Notes under the pieces: model-generated
Database searches by the model: none
Seen by the model: the letters and a program-made list of their open reading frames with translations, nothing else
What the model was told of the DNA's origin: nothing
In this document: positions 2,497 to 42,900 of the stretch, piece by piece
Position numbering within the stretch: position 1 is the first letter of the stretch
Layout of the letters: each line of letters begins with the position of its first letter
Made by a program: the position numbers and the translations under genes
Source: a virus
Direction: 5' to 3' (one strand)
Virus record (IMG/VR): IMGVR_UViG_3300046787_000316
Location: 62,001 to 126,000 of that record
Length of the DNA stretch: 64,000 nt

Positions 2497-5400
2497 TTAT
2501 TCGTAAAAGATACCTAAAATTTGATTCAATGGTGCAAATGTGCCTGTTAATTTATAAGTGTTACCTTTGTAAACAAATACAATTCCCTCATTAGGAACTA
2601 TCTTATCAATTCCACCAATAGATTGTAATCTTGCTAATTCCTTTTTCAATTTATCAATTTGAGCAGGATTTCCAGCCGTTCTAACTTGCGCTGAAACTGA
2701 TTTTAATTTATCTTTCATTGAACGTACTGCCGTATCTGGGTTTGCTGTTAAAACTGAACCCATAAATGATAACACATCGGCTCCAACTCCTAAAAATATT
2801 TCCTCAAATGGTCTAATATTATCTTTTTGTTGTTTTGCTACGTTTACTTTATCATTATCAACCGCCCATTTTTGCAATGTAGGGTCTGATATTGTATTTA
2901 AACGGAAAGATTTATCATAGAATCCCCATCTTCTAATAAGAGCATCCTTTGTAAGTTTATCAACTTTTATTGGTGCTTTCTTATCAATGAAATTACCCCA
3001 CCACGCGGTATGGTATGCATCAACCCCATCACTATCTTTTAATCCAAATTCAGATTGTAATTTAGAAAGTCTTGAAAGGTATTGAGATTGTTTACTATCC
3101 AATACTTCGTTTTTAGGAAGTTCAGTTACCGGTGGCCCTTGAATTGTATATTTCGATTGAACGTGTCCATTGGTTTGTTTAATCATTCCAGCCAATATAG
3201 TTGCCGCACTTTGGTCAGCCCCAATTGCTACACCTTTTTCATCATAACAAGTTGTATTGTGGAATACTAATAATGGTTGTCCGTAAGGAATTACATTAAC
3301 AGATGTAGGCCATATTACTTCCAAATTCATAAAACATTGTCCTTCTTTGAATATTTTATCTTTTTGTGCTTTTGATAATCCACTAATAGCGGCAGTTAAA
3401 TCTTTCATAGCGTAGTTGTACGCATCTGTTAAACCACCTCTACCACCAAACTTAGCCGCAACATCCTCTATACCCATCGCATTTGCTCCTGCGTTTGCCA
3501 AATGTCCTTTATTACGAGCTGCAATTAATCTTCCGTTTTTCCAACTGATTGCCAATGCCTGTCCATCGGTTTTTTCTCTTGTCAATTCCAATTTACCAGT
3601 CAATGCTCCTTTTATGATATTTTTTAAATCACCAAAAGTTAAATCCATATCATCAAATGGATGCGACATGTGTCCGTATGCCCCACCTTCCAATAGTAAT
3701 CCTTCATTAACCATTTTAGGAGCTGATGATTTAAAATCACCCTTTCTCATTATGGTTTTTGCGATTACTTTATTTGCCGATTTAACAAATGGAATATTAA
3801 TATCACTTCTACTATCGGTAACAACAATCTCCTTATATTTGTTTATGAAATCAGTAAATTCCTTTTTATGTTTTGCTAATCTTTTAAAAAATCCAGTCAA
3901 TTCGGCATCTGATATTTCTTTGCCATTTCTCGGGTCATTTACTCTATCGAAAAAATGTTTAGTAAATTCAATATCTTCGGGTGACATTTGAGAATCGGCA
4001 TACTTTTCAATTTGATTCAAATTCGATTGAGCCATTTCAGCCAAACCCAATGCATCCGTATAATCGGTTACCTCTTCATAATCACTATATCGTAATTCTT
4101 TTGCAATTTTATCCCAAGATGAATTTGGATTCTTAGTAACAACAGCTGCTATCTTTTTTCTTGTAAAAGAACTAGCTCTATCATACATTTTTTTAATTGC
4201 TTTGTAATGCCAATCTTCGTTATGCACTTCGTTTGTGTTATTTTTTTCTTCTGCTCTTGGAATTCTGAATGTAGTTGCCTTTTTGCCATTAATCGTTGGC
4301 ATTCCGTGGTCATCTACACCAATATCTTTTACTGTAACTTTTTTGTTTTTAAACTTTCCCATCAATAAAGTATCACCTTTATCAACATCTAAGTTAATAT
4401 CTTCATTATAAATTTGTTTGTTAATTCTACCATATTCCCTCATTAGAATTCCTGCTACCGCATGGGCTTTGTTCTCAATATCAGAGCCATCTGCTCCATC
4501 TTTTTCAGAATCAGTAACTAACCCCATTTCATCTTGCTTTCTATGTACCATCTCATGTGCAATAGTTCTCAAAATATCAGCAGTCAATCTACCTTCGGTT
4601 GCAACATATATCTCTTTAGTTTCAGGACTATACCCACCTAATGATGTTTTAACTTCTGCAAATTCTCTTCCACCAACTAATGTTACTTTAGGAGTTTCTG
4701 CTAATTTCAAACGTTTAGTGGCATATTCTACAAAGTGCTGAATTGAATTTTGCTTAGTATCTGAAAGATTTTCATTAATACCTTGCATCAATTGCTGTGC
4801 ATCTTGTTGTGGTTTTTGTTTTTTATACGATTCAATGGATTCCAACATCTGTTCATCAGTCATTTGATATGTTTCCATTTTTTTCAATGCCGATTTAATA
4901 ACATTTGCTGATATTGTTTGGTAATCTTCCATACCATTGATTCCTTCTAATAATCCACCGGTTGCTGTTGATAAACCTGCGCCAACTCCAGCGGCAGAAC
5001 CGGCTCCCAATCCCATTGCTTCCAATGTAGCATGTTTACCAATATCTTTTAATAAGTGTAATCCAAATCCACCTACCCCATGAGTAAACGCACCAGCTGC
5101 ACCATGTAATGCGGCACCACCAGCGGAAGCAACCGCTTGTCCACCCATAATTGCCTTAGCCGCTGCTACTCCTGCGCCACCTAATGCCATTGAGCCCAAT
5201 AAAAGTCCAGTAGTTGTAGCGGCAGTTTTCATAGCCCCTATTTGTTTTTTACGAGTTTCATCGGAATATTCCCATTCACCCGTTTCTTTGTTTTTGGTTG
5301 AACCTATTTTTTGCCCATTTGCCAATGCTTTAACCGCATCAGCTGTTCCACCCCAAGCTTCTTTTTGGTGATGTGCCCAATGAATCACTCCCTTACCAAA

Positions 5401-6669
5401 TGCCTTGGTTGCATTTTTAATATTATTCCAAGCCCCTTTTCTTTCAGAAGATTGTGGGTTATTTGTAGAGTCTAAAGTTTTCTTATCATCATCCGATAAT
5501 TCACTCTTAGCTTTATCTAATTTTTGTTTAATTTCGGCATCCTTCTCATTACCTTTAGGCATTTCTGCTTTAGATTTTAATTCAGAACCACTTAGTTTTT
5601 GTGGATTTGGTAATTCAGGTTCGGATGGAGTTTCCCCATTACCTTTATCTGCTTTACCTTGAGCCGTTTGGTCTTTCTTAACGGGTTGACCGGGTGCAGC
5701 TGGCTTAGCCGCTTGAGTAGCTGCTTTACCTTTTTGTGCATTTGGTTCGTTAGCAGGCGCATCATCCGGTCCTACCATTTTTTTAGCCTGAATATGAGCA
5801 GGATGTTCTTTTGCTAAACGTAATGCTCCTCTAACTGTAATCTTTTTCTTCTTACCATCGGATGCCGTATAATCAAATTCCTTATCCATTATAGGATTAC
5901 CACCATCAGCTTCTGTAAAATAATTTTTAACGAATTGTTCAAATATATCTTCAGCGATAGCTCTATCCATTATCTCTCCAATCGGGTCGTATGGTGCTTT
6001 ATTTCCATCAAATGCCTTTTTCTCATCATCTGGATGTTCCGTTTCATGTCGTGTTGGATGTGGCTCAGGTCTTAACGCAGAAGATGGTTCTGTATTTATA
6101 GATTCATTTAATTTACCTGTTATCATATTGAATATATCTTTATCAAATTTTGGATATGCTTTTAAAAATCCTTTCTTTTTTGCTTCATCATCCCCATTAC
6201 CTAACCAACTACGAACATCAGTTCCGCTAATTGCGTTGGTTTCAGCGGGCACTGGATACACATAACCTATTTCACCATACCCATATCCCGTCTTACCATT
6301 ATATGGTTTAAAATACTTCCCAGCCAATCTATCAGCATCTTTTTGTCCAACGGCTGCAATGTATGCCGTAGTTTTATCATCAAATTTACTTAAAATTTCT
6401 TTTGGAGCGTATGGGTTACTAACATTTACTATTTTGTTTGAAGGTATCCCAAACATCTTAGTCATAATTTTTACCTTTTCATTGAAATTGAATGGTGATT
6501 TATCATTATTTGTTACATTTGATGTACCAATATACACATTGTTAGCACCAAATTTTGATGCCAATTTTTGGTATGTTTTATAATGCCCTTGATGGAAGGG
6601 TTGAAATCGACCAGCATATACTACTATGGTCTTTTTAACTTGCGGTTTGTCTGCTTCTTTCAAATTCAT
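2497..6669 (-). CDS. Giant fusion: nucleotidylyltransferase + HExxH metalloprotease-like + nucleotidyl-ligase-like domain
   Basis: A 1390-residue multidomain protein. Residues 13-185 are an NMNAT/cytidylyltransferase-type domain with the HIGH-class motif GRFQPFHQGH (20-29) and ISGTDVR (147-153). Residues 300-420 are Ala/Pro/Lys-rich linker. Residues 478-575 are a Gly/Ala-rich hydrophobic stretch that could insert in or cross membranes. An AHEMVHRKQDE zinc-protease motif sits at 704-714. The C-terminal 400 residues resemble an ATP-dependent DNA/RNA ligase: KTDG (K1033) as the adenylation lysine, FMNLEVIW near 1113-1120, EGIVFVYKG (1361-1369) and YKLTG (1372-1376) as motifs IV and V. Domain calls come from motifs. 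How the parts act together is unknown; the hydrophobic segment and late-type leader suggest a virion or ejected protein. Confidence 0.8.
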   Translation of the reverse strand: MNLKEADKPQVKKTIVVYAGRFQPFHQGHYKTYQKLASKFGANNVYIGTSNVTNNDKSPFNFNEKVKIMTKMFGIPSNKIVNVSNPYAPKEILSKFDDKTTAYIAAVGQKDADRLAGKYFKPYNGKTGYGYGEIGYVYPVPAETNAISGTDVRSWLGNGDDEAKKKGFLKAYPKFDKDIFNMITGKLNESINTEPSSALRPEPHPTRHETEHPDDEKKAFDGNKAPYDPIGEIMDRAIAEDIFEQFVKNYFTEADGGNPIMDKEFDYTASDGKKKKITVRGALRLAKEHPAHIQAKKMVGPDDAPANEPNAQKGKAATQAAKPAAPGQPVKKDQTAQGKADKGNGETPSEPELPNPQKLSGSELKSKAEMPKGNEKDAEIKQKLDKAKSELSDDDKKTLDSTNNPQSSERKGAWNNIKNATKAFGKGVIHWAHHQKEAWGGTADAVKALANGQKIGSTKNKETGEWEYSDETRKKQIGAMKTAATTTGLLLGSMALGGAGVAAAKAIMGGQAVASAGGAALHGAAGAFTHGVGGFGLHLLKDIGKHATLEAMGLGAGSAAGVGAGLSTATGGLLEGINGMEDYQTISANVIKSALKKMETYQMTDEQMLESIESYKKQKPQQDAQQLMQGINENLSDTKQNSIQHFVEYATKRLKLAETPKVTLVGGREFAEVKTSLGGYSPETKEIYVATEGRLTADILRTIAHEMVHRKQDEMGLVTDSEKDGADGSDIENKAHAVAGILMREYGRINKQIYNEDINLDVDKGDTLLMGKFKNKKVTVKDIGVDDHGMPTINGKKATTFRIPRAEEKNNTNEVHNEDWHYKAIKKMYDRASSFTRKKIAAVVTKNPNSSWDKIAKELRYSDYEEVTDYTDALGLAEMAQSNLNQIEKYADSQMSPEDIEFTKHFFDRVNDPRNGKEISDAELTGFFKRLAKHKKEFTDFINKYKEIVVTDSRSDINIPFVKSANKVIAKTIMRKGDFKSSAPKMVNEGLLLEGGAYGHMSHPFDDMDLTFGDLKNIIKGALTGKLELTREKTDGQALAISWKNGRLIAARNKGHLANAGANAMGIEDVAAKFGGRGGLTDAYNYAMKDLTAAISGLSKAQKDKIFKEGQCFMNLEVIWPTSVNVIPYGQPLLVFHNTTCYDEKGVAIGADQSAATILAGMIKQTNGHVQSKYTIQGPPVTELPKNEVLDSKQSQYLSRLSKLQSEFGLKDSDGVDAYHTAWWGNFIDKKAPIKVDKLTKDALIRRWGFYDKSFRLNTISDPTLQKWAVDNDKVNVAKQQKDNIRPFEEIFLGVGADVLSFMGSVLTANPDTAVRSMKDKLKSVSAQVRTAGNPAQIDKLKKELARLQSIGGIDKIVPNEGIVFVYKGNTYKLTGTFAPLNQILGIFYE

Positions 6670-9856: not shown

Positions 9857-10396
9857 TTAAACGTAATATAATTCAGGGTATTCAACTATGCAATGGATAC
9901 CACCATTACTATATGCGTTTGAATAAATTGTTTCAATATCTTTCCACTCCTTCAAATCATAAAATTCAATATTCTTACACAATGATTTGAATTCATTAAA
10001 ATAATTTCCTTTATGTTGATGGCCGGGGTCAAGCGGAGTATCCGAACCTTTTCCCAATCTGATTATAATATTTACCGTATTACCAGTCATCAATTCATAT
10101 TTATCCAAATGATTTACCAACTGATTTGTTGCTGATATTAGGAAATCCCATCGTGGGTAAAATGTAATAACTGTCTTGCCAGTCATAGCCATTCCCAAAC
10201 TCATTCCCATTTGAGTTTCCTCCATAACAGGTACCTCAATCATCTTCTCCTTTGGGACTTCTCCCAAAGTTGTACTCATTGGATTACCAGCGTAGATAAT
10301 TTGCTGTCCAATAAAAATTGTATCATCTTTACTAGCCAAATTAGTCATAGCATTGGTTAATGCATCCTTATATGGTGAATATTGTGGTGTACTCAT
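9857..10396 (-). CDS. Thiamine-diphosphate enzyme, pyrimidine-binding half (E1-beta/transketolase C-type)
   Basis: A stand-alone 179-residue Pyr domain. The segment IEVPVMEETQMGMSLGMAMTG (split here as IEVPVMEE plus TQMGMSLGMA, 53-70) matches the region that carries the glutamate activating the aminopyrimidine ring; E59 is the best candidate. The ITFYPRWDFLISATNQL segment follows as in E1-beta proteins. The usual E1-beta C-terminal transketolase domain is absent. The matching PP-domain gene lies about 6 kb earlier in the same operon. Together they could form a heteromeric enzyme for C-C bond making or 2-oxoacid decarboxylation in sugar biosynthesis. Overlaps the next gene start region by one base. 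Confidence 0.75.
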   Translation of the reverse strand: MSTPQYSPYKDALTNAMTNLASKDDTIFIGQQIIYAGNPMSTTLGEVPKEKMIEVPVMEETQMGMSLGMAMTGKTVITFYPRWDFLISATNQLVNHLDKYELMTGNTVNIIIRLGKGSDTPLDPGHQHKGNYFNEFKSLCKNIEFYDLKEWKDIETIYSNAYSNGGIHCIVEYPELYYV

Positions 10397-15152: not shown

Positions 15153-16461
15153 AATTTTTTATTTTTTGTAAACTATTTTCAAATACATCATACTTTGTAA
15201 AACTTAATAGATGATTCCTATTATATATACATATATTTTTCAATTCTAATAGTAGTTGATTTAGTTCAGTTATATCGAATTGAGATATACGAAGTATTTC
15301 ATCGCATACCATTTTAAATCGTTTTTGAGAATTAGTTTCATTATCATATTCCTCATTTATATAAGGTGAGAATGTTTTAAATCCTAATTCTTGCATTATT
15401 TTTAAATGTCCATTTGAAGAAAATACAATGAAAGGTTGTAAATTAATAATTGGATGAAATGTTTTTTCCGAAAGGAATACTCTGTTATTTGTAAATGTAG
15501 TTTCAGTTACAATGTTAATAGCAGATTCCATATACAATGGCTTATAGTATATTTCGGAAGTTCTGAATTCAGATATGTTAATACGTTTATCCAAAAATTG
15601 AGTATCCAACTCCATTGGTATTTTATTAAAAAAAATGGAATCATACTCCATATATGACTGCGCATCTACTTTCGAAAGCACCTCATTTAATTCATCTACA
15701 TTTTTAGGATTGTGGCATACTAAGAAACTAAAATTACCAATATCCCATAGATTATTTTTTTCTAAAAATAAACCCAATGCATATCGATGTGGTCTATCAA
15801 CGTGTCTATTCATTGAAATAAAGTGTTTTTGTTTTTTAGTATCAAATACACTATGGTCTACTATTTCGGTAGTAAATTCAACTTGATTAGATTTATATGT
15901 TTTATTTCTTAATAATAGTTTTAAAGATTGTGCAGTATTTGCCAAAAAGAAATGGTCTGATATATAATTTATATTAGAATTTGTTGGAATATTGTTTGCG
16001 CTTGTTAATATAAAGAAATTAGATGGATTTATGTTGTTATCTCTACAAAATGTTTCTATTTGATTATTAAAAACAACATCGTATAAAGGTTCACCAAACC
16101 AATTAAATATTACCTTTAGTTGATTCGATTTTAACCTATCCAACACATTATCGGATATATTATTTATAAATTCATTATTGTAATATGGAACAGGTGTGTA
16201 TGATTCGCATATATAATACAATACATCATCTGATATATCGGTGGTTTGTAAATTATGTTTAAATACATACCCAGTTGATAATGTGCCAGAAAATTTATTA
16301 GTTCTACGTTCTCTTAAAAAAGAATCCCAATTGTAATCTATTGAGCATAACGTATTGTATTCATCTAATTCAATTTTGGAAAGGTTGTTTGGAAGTATTC
16401 TACCAAATTTATCTACATTTTCAAAGTAGAATTTAAAAGGCAATCCATTTACCTGTTCCAT
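15142..16461 (-). CDS. Putative glycosyltransferase, fucosyltransferase-like family, copy 2
   Basis: About 439 residues, paralogous to the gene at 7795-9234. FISMNRHVDRPHRYALG near 230 is the counterpart of NLNRRIRVHR there. FLSEKTFHPI, QPFIVFSS and ELGFKTFSP repeat the C-terminal sugar-nucleotide signature. No signal peptide or membrane span is visible. Its start lies 28 nt inside the end of the PP-domain gene, so the two are translationally linked. Likely transfers a deoxysugar or hexose made by the neighbouring epimerases, which is inference only. Confidence 0.65.
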   Translation of the reverse strand: MEQVNGLPFKFYFENVDKFGRILPNNLSKIELDEYNTLCSIDYNWDSFLRERRTNKFSGTLSTGYVFKHNLQTTDISDDVLYYICESYTPVPYYNNEFINNISDNVLDRLKSNQLKVIFNWFGEPLYDVVFNNQIETFCRDNNINPSNFFILTSANNIPTNSNINYISDHFFLANTAQSLKLLLRNKTYKSNQVEFTTEIVDHSVFDTKKQKHFISMNRHVDRPHRYALGLFLEKNNLWDIGNFSFLVCHNPKNVDELNEVLSKVDAQSYMEYDSIFFNKIPMELDTQFLDKRINISEFRTSEIYYKPLYMESAINIVTETTFTNNRVFLSEKTFHPIINLQPFIVFSSNGHLKIMQELGFKTFSPYINEEYDNETNSQKRFKMVCDEILRISQFDITELNQLLLELKNICIYNRNHLLSFTKYDVFENSLQKIKNYGI

Positions 16462-17062
16462 AATGTGGGAATTTTGATTTATAGTTGTAATATATTACAT
16501 CCGATGGTATTTCTCTTTTTGTATTCCAAGTTGCTTCCGTTGGTGTATAAGTTGAAACATTATTATCTTCTACTACGAAATATAAAGGTAAGTCAAAGTT
16601 TTTAGCATACTTATGTACTTCATAAAATATACCACTTTCAAAACTCATATCACCTACAAAACACCAAACTTTTTCATCACTACCACTATCTTTTAAAGAT
16701 TTGGCAACACCCAATGCAATTGAAAGAGTTCCACCAACAATTGCCGATGAATATAATTTTTCATCCGAATTGCATAATGTGATTGATTTTCCTTTAAGGA
16801 TTTCATCTTCAATCCAAATTGGACAAACACCTTTAAGTAATGCATGATAATGCGAACGCCAAGTTGAAAACACCCAATCGGTTGATTTTATTCTTTTGAA
16901 TATTTCAATCAATTGCTCTTCATTTCCTTCCGATAAATGAATGGGGCCCCTAATCTTTGCATCTTCCCAATGCTTCACAATCATTTCTTCAAAATTGATT
17001 AAATCTTCCGAAGTGTATTCCACATCATTTACAATTGGATACTTATCGATATTCTGTATCAT
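16433..17062 (-). CDS. Thiamine-diphosphate enzyme, PP-binding half (E1-alpha-like)
   Basis: About 209 residues that align with the core of 2-oxoacid dehydrogenase E1-alpha. IHLSEGNEEQ (41-50) matches the G.EA..vG start, STWRSHYHALLKG (66-78) the yR.Hg..l..G segment, and VGDMSFESGIFYEV (136-149) with EDNN (165-168) the ThDP/Mg motif GDG-x(26)-NN, here with Met in place of the third Gly. It is much shorter than a full E1-alpha (about 330-400). The partner Pyr half is encoded about 6 kb later. The reaction is not readable. In a sugar operon a two-carbon transfer or decarboxylative addition is plausible. Confidence 0.75.
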   Translation of the reverse strand: MIQNIDKYPIVNDVEYTSEDLINFEEMIVKHWEDAKIRGPIHLSEGNEEQLIEIFKRIKSTDWVFSTWRSHYHALLKGVCPIWIEDEILKGKSITLCNSDEKLYSSAIVGGTLSIALGVAKSLKDSGSDEKVWCFVGDMSFESGIFYEVHKYAKNFDLPLYFVVEDNNVSTYTPTEATWNTKREIPSDVIYYNYKSKFPHYGTGKWIAF

Positions 17063-19327: not shown

Positions 19328-20062
19328 TTATAATTTTTCTAAATCTTTACAAAATTTCATTAAGTGGTTGTTGTTACCTGTCATGTCCCAAAACTTATAA
19401 TCAGTTTCGTTTTCAAAATTAAAACAACATAATAATCCTAACTCACTTTTATCAACTAATTGAAATCCATGTTTATTTTTAGTTACAAGATTTGGTAAGT
19501 TTTTTCTGAAATCATTAACAACCGAGCCATCTAATTTTTTATTAGAAACTATAAAGAAATCACTATAACATTCTTGCGACCAACTAAAATCTCCCTTAGT
19601 ATCAGCTGAACCTATAAAGTATGGTGCGTTAACATAATCTCTTAACTTACCACCCAATGTTTCGGAATATACTAATTCATCATCAATCCATAATTCATAA
19701 GTAAACGTATCCCCATCCCAATTTAATGTAAATAAATGTGGTTCTGCCCAAAATTCTTCATCTTTATAGAACAAAATCTTATCGGCATATTTTTCTACCT
19801 CATCTTCCACATACCAAAAATTCAACATTAACATATCGGGTTTTCTATAAACGATTCCCGTATGTAATCCTCTTCTCATAAAGATTCCAGCCATATCATC
19901 TATTTTGGAATCATCTTCTCCTCGTTTCCAAGTTCCACTAATAGTCCAACTTGATTCATTCATTACATAAAAAGCAGATGTATCAATAATCCCATAGGCG
20001 TTATGTGGCCACCAAGGCAAATCTGCTAATATCAATGGTTCTTTGTGTTTTATTTTGTACAT
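19328..20062 (-). CDS. LamG/concanavalin-like domain protein
   Basis: About 244 residues of beta-sandwich character without a catalytic domain. SWTISGTWKRG, HLFTLNWDGDTFTYELWIDDELVY and YFIGSADTKGDF are typical LamG strands, with FNFENETDYKFWDMTGNNNHL as the closing segment. Related LamG modules are built into two glycosyltransferases next door. A single carbohydrate-recognition module in the cytoplasm is odd; it could present an acceptor glycan or act as a subunit for the radical SAM enzyme, whose gene it overlaps by one base. Function inferred only from fold. Confidence 0.6.
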   Translation of the reverse strand: MYKIKHKEPLILADLPWWPHNAYGIIDTSAFYVMNESSWTISGTWKRGEDDSKIDDMAGIFMRRGLHTGIVYRKPDMLMLNFWYVEDEVEKYADKILFYKDEEFWAEPHLFTLNWDGDTFTYELWIDDELVYSETLGGKLRDYVNAPYFIGSADTKGDFSWSQECYSDFFIVSNKKLDGSVVNDFRKNLPNLVTKNKHGFQLVDKSELGLLCCFNFENETDYKFWDMTGNNNHLMKFCKDLEKL

Positions 20063-21462
20063 TATAACTGTATTTCTTTTGTGAAATTATAAAATTCTTC
20101 TAATTCTGGGAATGTTTTACAAAAATCCGTTCCTCTTCTTTTGTCGTGTTCACTAAAGAATTTGTGGAAATTATATCTAGCTTTATGCAACTCCCCATTA
20201 TCAATTGGAGATATCGACCAATCGTATGTTCTTTTCAATTTTTGTATTTCTAAATCGGAATACCCAACGTATCCTTTTGAATAATATGGAATCCCATAAT
20301 AAAATGCTAATTGAGCTTGGTCAAATATATTTTGCTTAAATTGATGTGGTAGGATTTGTACCGTTTGATGACGAGGATGTCTTAGATATGATGTATCTAA
20401 TAATACAGGCGATAACCAATATCTATCATCTCCAGCATACTCTCTCTTCAAATCATACACTCCTTTAATTAATTTATCAAAACTGAATACTGATAACATA
20501 TTGTATGTTACCATAAATGTAATAGTGATTCTCGGAACTTCTCTTAAAATTCTATTTACATTATTCCAAAAACGATTAAACTCTAATCCGTTACGGATAT
20601 ATTCAGCTTGCTCTCCCCAACCATCACACGAAGTAAATAACACAAATCCCTTTACTTTATCTTCTTCTGTAATTCTTTTTAATTTTTCGATTAATTTAGT
20701 TATAAGCTCATCGCTAACTCCTAAATTGGAATTGATTGAGAAATCTAAATTTTTATTAGGATTTGGTTCATCAATTATATAATCCAAAACTTTCCAAGTA
20801 TCCTTTGATAACAATGGCTCTCCACCAGTTATTCTAAAAGTATGCAAATCTCTATACAAATCCGGCCACCATTTCCAAAATGCTTCTACATAAGGATTAT
20901 GTTCTCTATGTGGAATTGGCATCTTTTGTTCAGCTGCAAGATGTTTTAAATCATTGAAATTATCAGTTGTATTATACCCACCATGTTGCTGAATCTCTTC
21001 CATCCATTTAGATGAAAAAGTAGGTGAACAATATGAACAAGCAAAATTACAAATGTTTGAGAATGCAACCTCTACATATCTTGGATTAAAATCATCTCTC
21101 CAATTTGAATTTTTAATGGTTTCGAAATCAGGCCAAGACCAATCTTCGGATGATTTGAAAATTCTATCCGAATATAAATCCGAATTATCCTCAACTCCCC
21201 AACAATAATCACATTCCGTTGGCCTCGCACCGGACATCATTTCTTTTCTTTTCTGCTTCTTAAATAAAGTATTATGAAGTGCAGATGGGTTTCTAGCAAT
21301 CTCTGCTTCGGATACTTTGTGAGTATTAGGGTGGTGACAACTATGATTGTGACCGGTGTGTAAGTGAGTTGTAACTTGCGTCCATTTCGCTAAACACATT
21401 CCTTTACCAATGCCATCTAATGAATTTTTTACTTCTTCGTAAAGTGGTTTTTTATACGCCAT
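20062..21462 (-). CDS. Radical SAM enzyme with N-terminal extra cysteines (twitch-type)
   Basis: About 466 residues. The SAM cluster motif is C138-x3-C142-x2-C145 (SNICNFACSYCSP), followed by ITGGEPLL, the GGE strand that binds the SAM amino group. The N-terminal 130 residues hold further cysteines (C23, C42 and a C84-x2-C87 pair in ECDYC) that could bind an auxiliary cluster, as in 'twitch' domain radical SAM proteins. Such enzymes occur in phage and surface-polysaccharide loci, but their substrates are mostly unknown. Coupled by overlap to the LamG gene and 2 nt from the GT7 pair, so it probably acts on a sugar in the same pathway. Confidence 0.85.
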   Translation of the reverse strand: MAYKKPLYEEVKNSLDGIGKGMCLAKWTQVTTHLHTGHNHSCHHPNTHKVSEAEIARNPSALHNTLFKKQKRKEMMSGARPTECDYCWGVEDNSDLYSDRIFKSSEDWSWPDFETIKNSNWRDDFNPRYVEVAFSNICNFACSYCSPTFSSKWMEEIQQHGGYNTTDNFNDLKHLAAEQKMPIPHREHNPYVEAFWKWWPDLYRDLHTFRITGGEPLLSKDTWKVLDYIIDEPNPNKNLDFSINSNLGVSDELITKLIEKLKRITEEDKVKGFVLFTSCDGWGEQAEYIRNGLEFNRFWNNVNRILREVPRITITFMVTYNMLSVFSFDKLIKGVYDLKREYAGDDRYWLSPVLLDTSYLRHPRHQTVQILPHQFKQNIFDQAQLAFYYGIPYYSKGYVGYSDLEIQKLKRTYDWSISPIDNGELHKARYNFHKFFSEHDKRRGTDFCKTFPELEEFYNFTKEIQL

Positions 21463-21464
21463 AA

Positions 21465-22874
21465 CTATGCTTTAACATTTATAAGTTTGTGTTTATTATA
21501 TATAGTATCGATTGATATTAATTCGTATTTCATTGAGTTAATACCATCCGATTTGTAATCAATTTTACCCTGCTGCATTTGTAATATATATCGTCTTTCA
21601 TTTCTTGCAGTAGTTTCTCCCTTTGCCCATTTATCAATTCCCCCAACATTAATTAATCCTTCGGTTTGATGTGGTAAGCATCTGAATTTACCATCCCTTC
21701 TATATGGTAAGACTGTATTTGGTACTGAAATAGTTTGATTTATAATTTCTACATTATCCATTTCCAATTCATCCATTGGTTGGGAGAAATCCAAATCAAA
21801 TACTAAATTATCAGTAGGCTGTATTTTATGTAAGTTTTGTATTTCATCTGCTGATAAACATCTATCCCACATTTTTATTTCGGAAATATAACCTTTGAAA
21901 AATTCTTCATTTGGTGATTTAGAATATCCAATTTGAAATTTATCCATCCCATAACGTTTCAATGGTTCATTATAAATTAATGGCGAATATGTACCAGTCC
22001 CCAATCTTGCATCACTTTCTTTACCATTTAGATAAAAATGAATTTGTTTTAATTCGGAATCAACTGCCATTGTCACCCAACTCCATTGATTTTCATAACG
22101 TTTAATCCATTGATATAAATGAGTCTTAACTCTATCCCATAACATAGCAGTATAAGCTCTACTATTATTAAATGATATTCCCCAATCGTATCCAGGTTTT
22201 CTGAATATTGGGTACTCTATAAATTGTCTTTCGGAATCTCCAATTAACCATATAGGAACTTTTTCAATTTGTTGGTCAGCTTTTACTAAAATAGAAACGG
22301 TATGTGATTGTGAAATACAATCTTTCATTTCTCTGCTAGGCCTGTATAATGCTTTGGAATTCAATCCATTAAAGTATCCAACTAATTTATCTTTATCAAA
22401 ATCCAATTGATTTCGTTGTGCATACCCTTCCATCACACATCTCCAAAATAAATCATCATCCTCCATTCCCCAATCCCAATAATCATTTGAATATCCATTA
22501 GTACGTTCTACTTGTTCTTTGGAAAATACAACTGCTCCACCAAAATACTCCTCATATTTTAATTGGTAATCCGATTGTGAAATTCTAACGGCAATGTGTT
22601 GTGGGTTATCAGTTGGAAATGAATAATCGCAACTATCATCTTCCGGCACCATATCAATATCATGCCAAACGATGTAATCACATCCATCATCAAATGCATG
22701 TTTAGCTGCAATGTTTTTCATTAAACCTCTATTAAAAAGTTTATCATCACATTGATGTGCTAAATAAATGGTATGTTCAATTCCTTTTGAATCTAAAAAA
22801 GCAGATACAATTGGAATGAATTGATTCATGTGTTCTTCTCGGTTTCTATATGGTACACATACTCCTAATTTCAT
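21465..22874 (-). CDS. GT7 beta-1,4-galactosyltransferase-like enzyme with nested LamG domain, copy 1
   Basis: About 469 residues. Residues 3-150 follow animal beta-1,4-galactosyltransferase: VPYRNREEH, FNRGLMKNIA, HDIDMVP (metal Asp), YFGGAVVFS, NGYSNDYWDWGMEDDDL. A LamG-like sandwich fills about 165-370 (IWLIGDSE, WVTMAVDSELKQIHFYLNG, KMWDRCLSADEI). The GT7 tail then resumes: PYRRDGKFRCLPH (H402 at the metal-His position) and SDGINSMKYEL (442-452), which in the animal enzyme directly continue the catalytic domain. So the LamG looks inserted within the fold and not added at the end. Cytoplasmic, no signal or membrane anchor. ATGA-coupled to its paralog. Confidence 0.85.
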   Translation of the reverse strand: MKLGVCVPYRNREEHMNQFIPIVSAFLDSKGIEHTIYLAHQCDDKLFNRGLMKNIAAKHAFDDGCDYIVWHDIDMVPEDDSCDYSFPTDNPQHIAVRISQSDYQLKYEEYFGGAVVFSKEQVERTNGYSNDYWDWGMEDDDLFWRCVMEGYAQRNQLDFDKDKLVGYFNGLNSKALYRPSREMKDCISQSHTVSILVKADQQIEKVPIWLIGDSERQFIEYPIFRKPGYDWGISFNNSRAYTAMLWDRVKTHLYQWIKRYENQWSWVTMAVDSELKQIHFYLNGKESDARLGTGTYSPLIYNEPLKRYGMDKFQIGYSKSPNEEFFKGYISEIKMWDRCLSADEIQNLHKIQPTDNLVFDLDFSQPMDELEMDNVEIINQTISVPNTVLPYRRDGKFRCLPHQTEGLINVGGIDKWAKGETTARNERRYILQMQQGKIDYKSDGINSMKYELISIDTIYNKHKLINVKA

Positions 22875-24301
22875 TATATACCTACGTTTATAGTTCTTAT
22901 ATTACCATTGGTTTCAACACCATAGGTATGATATTTTAAAGTACTCAATCCATCGTTTTCCAATAATGAATGATTACCATTTACTTCATTTACAAATCTT
23001 AACTGATTCCATCTAGTCGATTGGTCTTTCCAAGCATTTCCTACGAATCCATTCTCATCATGCTTCAATGATTTGAATAGTGATTTCCTACGATGTGGAA
23101 TATAGAAATCTTCATAATCATCTACCAATTCTTTTACAATTTCACATTTATATATAATACCATCATTATCATTGCCAGATAAATCAGTTAGTTTATAGTT
23201 TTCAATGTGGTTAGAATCATAATATGTTTTTAAATTATCAGCAGATTCATATTTTCCAAAATTCTCTGTTAATAGTTTAGTATTATTATTAGAAATATCA
23301 TAAATCTCATCAGCTGATAATTGATTATCATAGTATGCGAAATATTCAATAGTTCCTTTAAACCAATTTGGAATAATTTCCCTATCAGGATTACCAACTC
23401 CTAAATAAAAGTATGGTTCTTTTCTATATCTAGCATTATATCTACGAATTGGTTCAGTTTCTCCAACTAACTCACCATCTTGATACATTTTAATTATAGT
23501 AGATGCTGAATCGTATGATAAAGTAATATTGGTTTTATACTTAGGTTTAATATCTGTATTAAGATATATGGGTTTGAATTTACTATCAAATGTACAGAAG
23601 TTGTATCTATCAAATGACGTATATGATATAGCGAAATCGAAGCCAGGTATACTAAACGCAGTAAATTCATCTGATTGTTTGTTATGATTTAAAATTAAAT
23701 TATTAGGTCTGAAACATATCGATATAGTAAAGTCATTATTCAAATCAATAACATTTTTGGATTTAACATAAGCATTATCGCCATTAAATCTTAAAACATT
23801 ATTATTGTAACCTACGTTTTTTAATTCTATTTTATTTAATTCAACTGAATGATACTTACATCTCAACAATAAGTCATCATCTTCATATCCCCATCCCCAG
23901 TACTTATTAGAATAACCATCAATCTGCTCAAAGATATCCATTGGAAATAACGTAACACCGCCAAAGTATGTATCAAATACAACTCGTTCCTTCTCACCTT
24001 CACTTAATTCAAAATTAGTAGATAAATGTAATGGGATATCCGAATAAGAATAATCTACATCAATTGGTAGCATATCAACATCGTGGAATACTACATAATC
24101 ACATCTAAGCTTTTTAGCTTGCTTAAATCCGATATTAAGTAGCATCCCACGATTAAAAAGTTTGGCATCGTCTTGGTGAACTATAATTAATTCAAATCGT
24201 ATATTTTTAGTTCGTAAATAAGTTACAATTGATTGTTTAAATTGTTTCAAATGTAAATCACGACCTCTATACGGCACAACTATGCCAACTTTCCTATCCA
24301 T
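22874..24301 (-). CDS. GT7 beta-1,4-galactosyltransferase-like enzyme with nested LamG domain, copy 2
   Basis: About 475 residues and the same plan as its neighbour. VPYRGRDLHLKQF, LFNRGMLLNIG, FHDVDMLPID, TYFGGVTLFP and DGYSNKYWGWGYEDDDL (128-143) are near-textbook GT7 motifs. LamG occupies about 165-375 (RFNGDNAYV, TNITLSYDSASTIIKMYQDGEL, YFAYYDNQLSADEI). The fold closes with HRRKSLFKSLKH (H414) and NDGLSTLKYHTYGV. The metal-site residue three before the His is Ser here and Cys in copy 1, where vertebrate enzymes have Met. The two copies probably act on different acceptors or donors. Overlaps the small gene before it by 8 nt. Confidence 0.85.
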   Translation of the reverse strand: MDRKVGIVVPYRGRDLHLKQFKQSIVTYLRTKNIRFELIIVHQDDAKLFNRGMLLNIGFKQAKKLRCDYVVFHDVDMLPIDVDYSYSDIPLHLSTNFELSEGEKERVVFDTYFGGVTLFPMDIFEQIDGYSNKYWGWGYEDDDLLLRCKYHSVELNKIELKNVGYNNNVLRFNGDNAYVKSKNVIDLNNDFTISICFRPNNLILNHNKQSDEFTAFSIPGFDFAISYTSFDRYNFCTFDSKFKPIYLNTDIKPKYKTNITLSYDSASTIIKMYQDGELVGETEPIRRYNARYRKEPYFYLGVGNPDREIIPNWFKGTIEYFAYYDNQLSADEIYDISNNNTKLLTENFGKYESADNLKTYYDSNHIENYKLTDLSGNDNDGIIYKCEIVKELVDDYEDFYIPHRRKSLFKSLKHDENGFVGNAWKDQSTRWNQLRFVNEVNGNHSLLENDGLSTLKYHTYGVETNGNIRTINVGI

Positions 24302-24536: not shown

Positions 24537-25388
24537 TTAAATTGATATTATTTTTTTAAGTAAATTATCCCATTGAGTGTATCCATTATAATCATCTGAA
24601 ATATTTTCAAAACCATATTCTGAATTATTTACATCTATTTCAAAATTATTACTTCTAATAGCTTGATACATTTTCAAATATTCTGCTGAAAATGCATAGG
24701 GTTTGCGCTCATCTGCCACTGTTTTAATCCTATCAACACAAGTTGAATCCCATTTAAAATGATGAACTTGCACATTATACTTATCAATTGGTGCTATTAA
24801 CGGATGATTCCATCCATGCCATCTCCAAGTTGAATGTCCATTTATTTTTGCATAATGTTGTCCTGCTGTAATTTCAATATTACCTTTCATAATACAAACC
24901 TTATTAGGACATGCTTCACTCATAGGATATCTAAAGAATCCAGCCAACGGAAATTGTTTAAATATATTTTTGTATGGTTCTATAACAGGGAATACACCAT
25001 TCTCACCAATTCTATCGATAAATCCTCCTCTAACTAATTCCCATCCATTAATTTCACAATCTTCAACAATATAACTTAGAGGTTGCGAATAAACATGAAA
25101 TTCATCATCATCTGAAACTACCCACCAATCATTTGGATGCATCAATTTAGTTTCATTATATAATTGGGTAACATATTCCCAATTAAACTTCTCTTTAACT
25201 TCCCTTCTAACTATCTTAGCATTTGGAAAATTAACTAATATGTTTGAGATTTCTGAATAAGTACTAAATCCTTCCCACTCATATACTACGATATAAATTT
25301 CATCAACTATATCCTTGTAATGATTCAGCATGTGCCACAATGTATTTGTACGTGAACCAGTAACCGTAACTAACCTTATCTTTTTCAT
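24537..25388 (-). CDS. Putative glycosyltransferase (GT2/GT92-like, GT-A)
   Basis: About 283 residues. The N-terminal strand LVTVTGSRTNTL with helix HMLNHYKDIVDEIYIVVYE and then WWVVSDDDEFHVY near residue 93-101 give a metal-binding DxD site in the DDDEF form. The C-terminal half has an HHFKW segment typical of proteins that glycosylate a nucleotide-sugar acceptor in surface loci. No membrane segment. Donor unknown. Followed closely by a host-type promoter for the next gene, so it ends one transcription unit of the island. Confidence 0.7.
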   Translation of the reverse strand: MKKIRLVTVTGSRTNTLWHMLNHYKDIVDEIYIVVYEWEGFSTYSEISNILVNFPNAKIVRREVKEKFNWEYVTQLYNETKLMHPNDWWVVSDDDEFHVYSQPLSYIVEDCEINGWELVRGGFIDRIGENGVFPVIEPYKNIFKQFPLAGFFRYPMSEACPNKVCIMKGNIEITAGQHYAKINGHSTWRWHGWNHPLIAPIDKYNVQVHHFKWDSTCVDRIKTVADERKPYAFSAEYLKMYQAIRSNNFEIDVNNSEYGFENISDDYNGYTQWDNLLKKIISI

Positions 25389-25428: not shown

Positions 25429-26190
25429 TTATTTTCTGCTTAGCAGTGTCAAACCTGTCGAGGTAGGTCTTTTTGTGTCAAATATACGAAAATTTTTTAA
25501 ATTTACCAAGTCCCAATCTGGATTATCTTTTAATTCTTTAACAAATTTAGCAGGTCCATCAAATGTAGCAAAATCCTTTTTAGCATTTTCGGTAACAATA
25601 AACGTATCGTGGTATAGTTTATCGGTATCGTGAATTGTAATCAATCCATTTTCAGACATTATAGTAGAATATAATTCAAAATCTTTCTTAACTCCCTCAT
25701 AAGAATGGTCGCCATCTATATGTAGATAGTCAATTTTAATATCTTGTCTAACAAAGTAATCGTAAAACGCTCTCTCCGAAGTTTCTAATATAATTTGAGG
25801 ACTGAAATGTTTTCTAAGAAACGAATCTTCTTCAGTCCAATCGGTGAACCCACCAACTCCATTTGAAGCATCTACTATAATGGTTGTACCAACATCACCC
25901 CACTCATTGGATGGATTTCCTTCGAATATATTTTGAGAATGTAAATCAACTCTGGCTTGAGTCATAATACGTGGAATGAATCCACCACCACTACCAATAC
26001 AAACGCAGATTTTTGAACGAGAAAATTGTATGAATGAATATATTAACATTCCATCTCCTAAGTGTAAATCAGTTGCACCATGAGTCCATCTGTAATTTAT
26101 CGGAGTATGTATTTGATTACCCTCTTCATCGAAGTGATGATTATTAGTAAGGTAATCTTTAACAATATTTAGATTAAGTAACGATTGCAT
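25429..26190 (-). CDS. Class I SAM-dependent methyltransferase (Methyltransf_24-like)
   Basis: About 253 residues. ICVCIGSGGGFIP near 60-72 is motif I, and DYLHIDGDHSYEGVKKDFEL near 150 carries the HIDGDHSYEGV signature of the macrocin-O-methyltransferase/cephalosporin-hydroxylase-like group, with IHDTD after it. These enzymes methylate sugar hydroxyls on glycans or natural products, so O-methylation of a phage-made sugar is the best reading. It sits between glycosyltransferases; the 40-nt gap after it contains an AAGCTT repeat that does not form a terminator on this strand. Confidence 0.8.
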   Translation of the reverse strand: MQSLLNLNIVKDYLTNNHHFDEEGNQIHTPINYRWTHGATDLHLGDGMLIYSFIQFSRSKICVCIGSGGGFIPRIMTQARVDLHSQNIFEGNPSNEWGDVGTTIIVDASNGVGGFTDWTEEDSFLRKHFSPQIILETSERAFYDYFVRQDIKIDYLHIDGDHSYEGVKKDFELYSTIMSENGLITIHDTDKLYHDTFIVTENAKKDFATFDGPAKFVKELKDNPDWDLVNLKNFRIFDTKRPTSTGLTLLSRK

Positions 26191-39928: not shown

Positions 39929-42900
39929 TTATTCTACTTCCAAAATTGGTTCAGATGAATCTCTACCTGCTTTGTTTACTTTCAACGTATTAGGGTTTGT
40001 TGTAAACACTTCTACCGGAGATGAGCCATCTAAAGTAGTTGCCGCAGTATTTTTAGAACCCTTAAAGAATGAATTTTCCATTCCTCGTGTCAAATCGGAT
40101 GTATTTCTAAAATGTGTTTTTAAATACCCATTTACAGGTACTACCGAAATAATATTGTTCTTAACAATTGGAGCAACCGAATTAGCGAATGGTTGAATAT
40201 TCAATGTTGTTTCTGTATAAACCGATGATGTTAATACACTACCACCTCTTTCATCACCCAATCCAGTTAACGATGATGTTACTGCGTATTTAACTATTTG
40301 TCTAGTCTTTTGTTCGGTTATCAAATTAACTCTAACTCTCTCCTTTATAACACTACCATCTGTTCCAAAATAAGTTCTAATGGCAGAACCACTTTGTGCA
40401 TAAATACCAAATCCAATATTTTCTAATACCGATTGACCTGCTATTGTATTACTATTTACTAAATCAATTTCACTTAATATAGTAGGTTCGCCTAAGCCGG
40501 AACTAATTGTAGTTTCTTTTTGATAAACATCCGATGATAATATCAAATCATCATTGGCACCAATTAATGAATCATATTGATAATTCATAGCCGTTAAATT
40601 ATTAGATAAATTGGCTTCAACTAATGATTCATACTGATTATTTTCACCAGATATACTATCGGATAAATCGGCGTTTACAATCATTTCATATTGATTGTTT
40701 TCCATTTGTATTACCGTAGTATCCGAAAACTTTATATTAGTTTCTTTCTGATATTCTTCTCCCGTTGGCTTATTCAATTGAACTTTACTTCTTTCTAAGA
40801 AATGCGGCTCAATTAAAAGACCCGTAGTTGCTTTAACTCTAGCTGGCAACATCTTCTTAATATCTTCAAACATTGATTTCTCATAAAGTTTGATTAAGTT
40901 GATGTATGAATAAATATCTCTACCATCAAATCTTTCGAAGTAATAACTTCTCAAATCATCTAATTGTTTGTAATTAGATTTATATGCATCGGATGGGTCA
41001 CCAATATAGTTATCCAAATTAATTCCACCAAATGATTTGGCGATATCAATATTTAATTCTTTTGTTGGTGAGAAAAATAATCCCACTCTATTTGAATCGG
41101 TTGGAGATTGGTCAAACGCTTTCTTAGTAGCTCTACCTTTAGATGATAAATCTGAAATTAATGTTTGCGATTCCATTCTAACTTTATTCGTAGAATATCT
41201 ACCAGCTCCTAAATCGGGTATTTCCAATACAACACTTCTATCAATAGCTTCGAATTGATACGGATAATCTGTTATAGATGTAAATCCAAACGCAGATGCT
41301 GAATATGATGCCGATGGGTTTGTTGATAATATTGTATCTCCACCTACCAAAGAACCACTTTCTAAATCATTTCTATATAAAGATGATGAATAGTGTATAT
41401 TCGCATCCACATTTAACAATGATTGAGAAACTGATAAATTCTTAGGGTATTCAAAATCTAAACGGAAATATAAATCATCGGTAGATGCTGAAACGTGATT
41501 TCCATTAATCATCTCCGGAAATGAAACGTGTTCAAAGAAACGTTCTTTTTCCAATGGGGTTGACCATAAACGGAATTCATCCAAACTACCAACGTATGTT
41601 CCACCAACCTTTAATTCAGTAGGAGTTTCCCAATCCGAATTTGTATTAACTACACTAGCAGTCGTTGTGTTTTGGAATATAGTTCTTTCTTTATTAGCCT
41701 GTCTTACATTTAATTCAAAATTATGATAACTACCACTTACTTCTCTTGATATCTCTACACCAAAGAAATTACCATTGAATATAGGTAATATTGATGATGT
41801 AAAATTACTAGAGCCATAATTGAACTCCAAATATCCAAACGGATTATCAGCATCATTAGATGATGTGTGTAAATTTAAACTAACCGAACTACCATTCAAT
41901 GAAAGTAATGTAGATGATTGTCTACCCAATGGTTTAACAAATACCTCTATTGTATCAGGTCGTCTATTTCGCTCGGTATCTCTCCAATCAGTTGTAATAT
42001 ATGAACCACTAACCATTTTAAGAGCGGTAGTAATGTTATCCATCACTAACTTAGTCTTAGTAGTTTCGGTTACTTCTGGTCCTCCAAATTCTAAAATAGA
42101 AAGATTAGATGATGGGATACCATAGCAACTCAATAGTGCGTAAACTCCTCTTCGAGTTCCTTTATGTTTTAATAAGTAAGGTAAGTTATTTATAATTCTT
42201 CTCCAAACTTCGTATGTTCTTTGTTTGGCTGGGTTTAATTCAGTTTCACCATTTTGATTACCAAATACATAAGACCACAATGCTTTATCTGCTGCCAGAT
42301 TTTGAGCATCCCATCCAAATGATTTAAGTGCATCAAATAATAATTTATCCGAAATACCATCTTTCGATTGGTATCCTAATCCTCTACTCTTTTCAATTGC
42401 TTTGGTATGGAAATAGATATTATCAAAATGTTGACCAATCATTGAAAAGAATAATAGTAAACTGGCATTCTCCTCATTGTTAACAATATATTGTGGTATA
42501 TTGTTTTGAACCCAATTCATATTATTAGAATCATAGATAGTAGCATCCTCTAATATAATGTTATACCAATCGGCAACACTATTATCATTCGATGATACTC
42601 TATTACTTCCGTTATAAGGCCAAGACATTGAAGATGATGTGTATAAGAATTTCTCAAATCCATCAAATCCAGTTATCAATTGATTTTTCTTAGATAATTG
42701 TCTTTCACTCTCTTGTTGCGATACAAGTGATGATGTATAAAATGCTTGCTCCTCACCGGTATAATCGGTAGATGCGCTTAATATTAATTGCTCATAACTT
42801 TCAATTAATTGAACTTTATAAACGAAATTATCCAATCTTTCTTTTGCCGAACTGAAATGTACGAAGTTATTCCACAAATAAGTTGAACCACTCACATATT

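Follow-up and report, generated by a model that had tools for sequence, protein, structure and literature searches.

In polypeptide GalNAc-transferases of family GT27 and in MGAT4A (GT54), a lectin domain is appended at the C-terminal end of the enzyme. In these proteins, the lectin that accompanies the GT-A domain influences activity or glycopeptide specificity (PMC4432651, PMC9296478); GT27 and GT7 belong to one GT-A clade (PMC7185993). Three hypervariable sites of the GT-A core, HV1-HV3, have also been described, located at beta3-alphaC, at beta6-beta7 and in the tail after beta8 (PMC7185993). GT-A enzymes are thought to gain acceptors through loops at three sites or through appended lectins. 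In B4GALT1, Mn2+ at site I is bound by Asp254, Met344 and His347 (PMC7565966). Among phages, the host recognition cluster of T4-like pelagimyophages contains hypervariable islands rich in glycosyltransferases beside the tail fibers, interpreted as altering host surface glycans against co-infection; GT8 is the most represented family, and the terms LamG, laminin and galactosyl are absent from the text of that paper (PMC7029224).

Here we describe two tandem phage proteins, P0001 and P0002, confirmed by profile searches as predicted GT7 enzymes with a LamG/pentraxin-like sandwich lodged within the catalytic domain. They are encoded in a stretch of 64,000 nucleotides (the window), part of a 137-kb virus record with tail-fiber and T4-like baseplate genes. 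This architecture was not described in the open-access literature searched.

Evidence for a split GT7 domain

Both open reading frames at 21465-24301, minus strand, proved to be real and to lie where the first-pass annotation had placed them. Copy B (P0002, 475 aa; 22874..24301, minus) is transcribed first, and the ATG of copy A (P0001, 469 aa; 21465..22874, minus) overlaps its TAA stop. Read from the sequence, the junction is TAATG, with one base common to stop and start, and because of this overlap copies B and A are probably translated together by translational coupling. As the reading frames are open throughout, neither chance nor a frameshift explains the split.

Pfam recognized GT7 and LamG in both proteins: GT7C (E 2.2e-19), GT7N (E 5.3e-18) and Laminin_G_3 (E 8.2e-12) in copy A, and GT7N (E 9.6e-20), GT7C (E 5.4e-17) and Laminin_G_3 (E 1.2e-8) in copy B. 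The GT7N/GT7C scores of 65.4/69.3 bits (P0001) and 71.0/61.6 bits (P0002) passed the curated cut-offs of 27 and 23, as did the Laminin_G_3 scores of 46.0 (P0001) and 35.6 bits (P0002) at a cut-off of 27.6. Significant PDB sequence matches, to B4GALT1 and B4GALT7 with E values down to 2.6e-29 and 7.7e-25, were confined to the N part, and Pfam called GT7C only before LamG. Taken by themselves, these two observations would fit a protein that is no split enzyme at all, made up of a truncated GT7, a LamG and an unrelated C-terminal domain in that order.

We consider such a truncation highly improbable in light of matches to an insert-free GT7 HMM, built from 8 bacterial GT7s without the insert (L168-L175). 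In copy B this profile aligned to an N part at residues 2-157 (23831..24298, minus; profile 12-168) and again within the C part, residues 403-475 (22877..23095, minus), where residues 403-461 matched profile 167-227. Similarly, the N part of copy A at residues 2-153 (22416..22871, minus; also matching B4GALT1 6fwu, E 2.6e-29) covered profile 14-166, and its C part, residues 392-469 (21468..21701, minus), matched profile 168-228 at residues 392-455. Profile coordinates are thus contiguous across the insert in both proteins, so that the C piece fits the insert-free profile at exactly the missing positions. C pieces scored 22.8 bits in P0001 and 20.6 in P0002, versus maxima of 2.9 and 5.2 among 1000 shuffles each. 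Both GT7 pieces were recovered in 318/348 full-length relatives, with a median insert of 244 residues and a median profile step of 0. In the converse search, a C-part profile made from the phage proteins matched the C-terminal end of GT7s that lack the insert, in the SAR11 order and in other bacteria.

Judged by this profile and its contiguous coordinates, the C-terminal C-His/DGL segment appears to complete the GT7 domain. The first-pass annotation had proposed that GT7 resumes after LamG, and the contiguous two-piece match, with C pieces far above shuffles, bears this out; the collinear matches likewise support its placement of LamG after the EDDD helix and ahead of the C-His/DGL segment. 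Its insert of about 200 residues does exist, but measures about 240 residues. The insert spans residues 158-402 in copy B (23096..23830, minus; Laminin_G_3 at 173-333, with pentraxin and PAPP-A fold matches) and residues 154-391 in copy A (21702..22415, minus; Laminin_G_3 at 188-346, LamG profile E 2.1e-74). The GT7 motifs quoted at the outset were all found in the two proteins. The N part of copy B contains FNRG, HDVDMLP, YFGG and GYSNKYWGWGYEDDD, for which copy A has the variants HDIDMVP and GYSNDYWDWGMEDDDL. The C parts contain RRKSLFKSLKH (C-His) and NDGLSTLKYHT in copy B, and RRDGKFRCLPH (C-His) and SDGINSMKYEL in copy A.

Structure models

AlphaFold2 models reached pLDDT 92.5 and pTM 0.88 for P0001 (alignment of 86 relatives) and pLDDT 94.8 and pTM 0.89 for P0002 (80 relatives). 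Foldseek superposed the N parts on B4GALT7/B4GALT1, with best E values of 8.9e-14 and 1.6e-13 (the latter for copy B on B4GALT7 4lw3) and 1.6-3.3 A over about 150-164 N-part columns only; a GT-A fold like that of B4GALT was accordingly recognized for the N part only. After the B4GALT matches, Foldseek listed pentraxins and PAPP-A, both LamG-like folds, for the insert, and no match bridged it. No full-length match was present among the 50 best BFVD viral models (best query TM-score 0.40). After the insert, DSSP of the models gave a strand at C-His, then a helix, then two terminal strands. Together with the profile matches and the high pTM, this order of elements argues that the C part would belong to the GT7 core.

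Active-site residues and copies A, B and C

DxD, the EDxD catalytic acid and C-His are present in GT7 order and conserved in copies A and B, in agreement with the initial view that the catalytic residues are intact. Across 69 non-redundant sequences of copy A, DxD, the Tyr289 and Trp314 equivalents, EDDD and C-His are invariant, except for the middle DxD residue. Copy B retains DxD and C-His in 93/93 sequences and a Tyr at the Tyr289 equivalent in all but one; its catalytic-acid motif reads EDDD in 71 of the 93, EDTD in 12, EDND in 8 and EDTE in 2. Since the DxD, Tyr289, EDxD and C-His equivalents are conserved, P0001 and P0002 are likely active UDP-sugar transferases. A Tyr at the Tyr289 position of B4GALT1 favors Gal over GalNAc, and its equivalent in the phage copies suggests Gal rather than GalNAc.

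At the equivalent of Met344, three residues before the His, P0001 has Cys and P0002 has Ser, as had been pointed out earlier. The weight given to this substitution holds for copy A, where Cys occurs in 69/69 sequences, and not for the Ser of copy B, where the position varies (L, S, K, T or A). The position also varies in insert-free GT7s, being S, V, A, L, M or P; the motif reads VLPH, ALHH, PLPH, LLPH, PMPH, PLDH or SLQH in bacteria, and SLNH, SLSH, SLDH, SLAH, SMPH, ALDH or PLDH in compact viral GT7s, the latter read from correctly split rows only because the automatic N/C split was wrong in about half (including VL330 and VL288, two of the ten that group with the split enzymes). Given this variation in copy B and the insert-free relatives, the putative Cys ligand fixed in copy A seems of interest, and the Ser of P0002 does not appear special.

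Some phages carry a third LamG-split GT7 paralog, class C, upstream of B (e.g. L038:1492-2970, L033:1774-3249). We found 21 such sequences, and three GT7 copies in 33 loci. Class C keeps LamG with an often damaged active site: EDDD is replaced by EDLD, ADLD, HWID or EYMD, and C-His is lost in 9/21. This copy is possibly an inactive partner subunit, and since it retains LamG despite partial loss of its catalytic motifs, LamG may serve some purpose beyond catalysis.

Distribution of split and insert-free GT7s

With the two proteins as queries, scans of IMG/VR yielded 178 and 173 relatives, from which the best 80 of 178 and best 80 of 173 were retained. All complete relatives found with P0001 and P0002, on over 160 contigs, are split. 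The GT7N-LamG-GT7C order was found in 351 complete ORFs, plus 2 with a LamG match in two pieces, and exceptions in viral loci were at contig ends or were fragments. Twelve larger records of 145-336 kb have at least two full-length matches each. No isolated phage matched P0001, P0002 or the SAR11-order GT7 by tblastn.

When 84,980 genomes of bacteria and archaea were scanned for the pattern, only five contigs, all from MAGs, had split copies. Because four of the five carry cassette genes in common with the window, this suggests that the MAG copies are binned phage DNA. In broad samples of 297 Bacteroidota genomes and 297 genomes of the SAR11 order, full-length matches were limited to the MAGs already found. 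Among 399 Pseudomonadota genomes, 126 have PF02709 above cut-off, and the LamG insert was absent in all 29 fetched loci new to that search. Counted by profiles, the layout occurs in hundreds of uncultured water phages, MAG contigs aside. The first-pass annotation had asked whether the same insertion is common in cellular organisms; none of the cellular chromosomes searched carries it. Its term "animal-type" was too strong, as GT7 is common among bacteria: insert-free members of similar identity exist in several bacterial groups, including the SAR11 order, and also in other phages. Pelagibacter was considered as a candidate host but not adopted, as its support amounted to one contig in a Pelagibacterales MAG; MAGs of Flavobacteriales and Gammaproteobacteria contain other cassettes, and the closest isolated relative of the baseplate is a Microcystis phage.

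A 259-aa GT7 of several SAR11-order genomes has no LamG: its EDTD helix runs straight into YRDGFFSPLLH (e.g. L261). The gene has housekeeping genes for neighbors, on contigs of 57-272 kb. Separately, a compact chromosomal SAR11-order GT7 (L247, L249, L250) has NNVD instead of HDVD at DxD. Compact GT7s of 219-235 aa also occur in some phages (L284, L302, L304, L308). Both these compact viral GT7s and the 259-aa protein are empty-site relatives. Rooting the tree with B4GALT1/7 gave long-branch joins, and it was rebuilt without them. In a tree without the compact viral GT7s, the split enzymes lie on one side of a branch (99/98), for which reason a phage GT7 lineage probably acquired LamG a single time, ahead of the divergence of A, B and C; the simplest reading is one insertion and later duplication. 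With the compact viral GT7s included, ten of them group with the split enzymes at 100/99, and the tree supports no single branching order among the compact viral GT7s, A, B and C. LamG loss or repeated insertion may therefore also have occurred, and the larger tree is compatible with either.

Conservation of the LamG insert

The inserts of A and B are related (hhalign E 4e-33). Columns conserved at 90% or more (Neff-weighted) make up 50% of the N part in A and 36% in B, 27% and 18% of the C part, and 18% and 5% of LamG. Covariation among N, LamG and C gave a weak signal at Neff 47 and 78, with N-C pairs not enriched in A and enriched up to 2-fold in B. We identified no ligand-binding site on LamG. 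Its weak sequence conservation, together with the compact viral and cellular GT7s that have the same catalytic residues and no LamG, would be compatible with a tolerated insertion that has no direct catalytic function, in an enzyme that works as a compact GT7. This seems improbable to us: LamG is kept in every complete relative found with P0001 or P0002 despite strong divergence, the degraded class C included, and a useless insert of 240 residues would be expected to be lost sometimes in a phage. Conservation is lowest in LamG, as would be expected of a binding module that evolves quickly while the catalyst carrying it stays constant.

Neighboring genes and possible role of LamG

Most loci share one gene order: methyltransferase, a second probable glycosyltransferase, B, A, and a twitch-domain radical SAM protein. 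In the window, all on the minus strand, these neighbors are a Methyltransf_24 methyltransferase (25429..26190; Pfam E 2e-10, relative in 137/160 loci), the probable second glycosyltransferase (24537..25388; GT2-like Glyco_tranf_2_4, E 0.013, below cut-off; 152/160 loci) and the radical SAM protein (20062..21462; NF033640, E 2e-104; relative in 148/160 loci), which directly follows copy A, in the order B-A-radical SAM, in 134/160 loci. A free-standing LamG protein (19328..20062, minus) next to the cassette matches the insert LamG profile (hmmsearch E 1.4e-13), and the fetched loci contain 104 free-standing LamG ORFs. Two loci (L122:7827-10646, L119:7852-10650) have proteins of 933-940 aa with two tandem LamG domains, which either accompany the cassette's small free-standing LamG or replace it.

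The window also holds three epimerases, a dTDP-sugar isomerase, split TPP enzymes, a carbamoyltransferase and a tail fiber. The transketolase/E1-like TPP halves (16433-17062 and 9857-10396, minus) are separate genes about 6 kb apart among the sugar genes. Elsewhere, 2497-6669 (minus) encodes 1390 aa with an N-terminal cytidylyltransferase/NMN-adenylyltransferase-like domain and a remainder mostly without match, and 39929-44971 (minus) is a 1680-aa ORF adjoining baseplate genes, without Pfam or PHROG match.

This setting bears on what LamG might do. The cassette adjoins a tail-fiber gene and baseplate genes that share its strand; many viral proteins contain LamG/ConA-like domains, among them structural proteins of pelagimyophages (PMC7029224); and the virion of Aureococcus anophagefferens virus contains a beta-1,4-galactosyltransferase together with LamG proteins as separate polypeptides (PMC7507832). 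LamG could then dock or oligomerize, anchoring the enzyme to virion or tail-fiber assembly, where it would glycosylate the structural proteins of the phage itself. We regard this as unlikely, since a terminal fusion would suffice for docking and insertion at the catalytic cleft suggests acceptor handling; the genes also cluster with sugar-nucleotide enzymes typical of surface polysaccharide synthesis.

We hold it moderately probable that P0001 and P0002 are active GT7s with one LamG insertion, in which LamG serves as a built-in glycan-binding module feeding the active site; the nearby sugar-nucleotide genes and the free-standing LamG next door count in favor of such an active split enzyme. As proposed, both would be inverting, metal-dependent glycosyltransferases, with UDP-galactose the most likely donor and with donor binding and inversion most likely as in B4GALT. 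LamG follows the EDxD catalytic helix and precedes the stretch bearing the metal-binding C-His. From this position we infer that it lies near the hinge of the B4GALT1 mobile loop, thus close to the acceptor side, and a part in orienting the acceptor is plausible. Anchored in the enzyme by its two ends next to the donor/acceptor cleft, and for that reason most likely a built-in glycan-binding module, LamG could capture a growing surface or virion glycan and present it to the active site. A and B would add sugars in succession or as a complex, and the target would most likely be a host surface polysaccharide altered during infection. More tentatively, LamG might be an obligate acceptor-gripping module near the mobile C-His segment, with A and B forming a glycan polymerase or capping complex, joined in some phages by the third, degraded copy, through which phages rewrite host surface sugars. 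Overall, the findings point to a widespread phage cassette for complex glycans, and with insert-free relatives at hand the evolution of acceptor specificity becomes directly testable through one module.

Comparison with known systems

The genomic setting resembles the pelagimyophage cluster in that a glycosyltransferase-rich island lies beside tail fibers in a T4-like phage. Relative to B4GALT1/B4GALT7, the phage N part is 31-36% identical over about 150-164 residues, and the DxD, YFGG, WGW.EDDD, C-His and DGLN segments follow in the same order. However, no matched structure has a domain between the EDDD helix and C-His, the phage proteins begin with the catalytic domain and have no membrane anchor, and the Met344 ligand is Cys in copy A or variable in copy B. 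Compact bacterial and viral GT7s share the same core with the C piece straight after the EDxD helix, and lack the LamG insert. In GT27 and MGAT4A the lectin is appended, whereas the phage LamG lies inside the catalytic domain, and the lectin folds differ. As at HV1-HV3, this is a family-specific addition to the GT-A core of the kind that shapes acceptor binding, but located between the xED helix and C-His, outside the three listed sites and close to the third. What sets the phage enzymes apart from these systems is a whole lectin-like domain within the catalytic one, retained in hundreds of phages.
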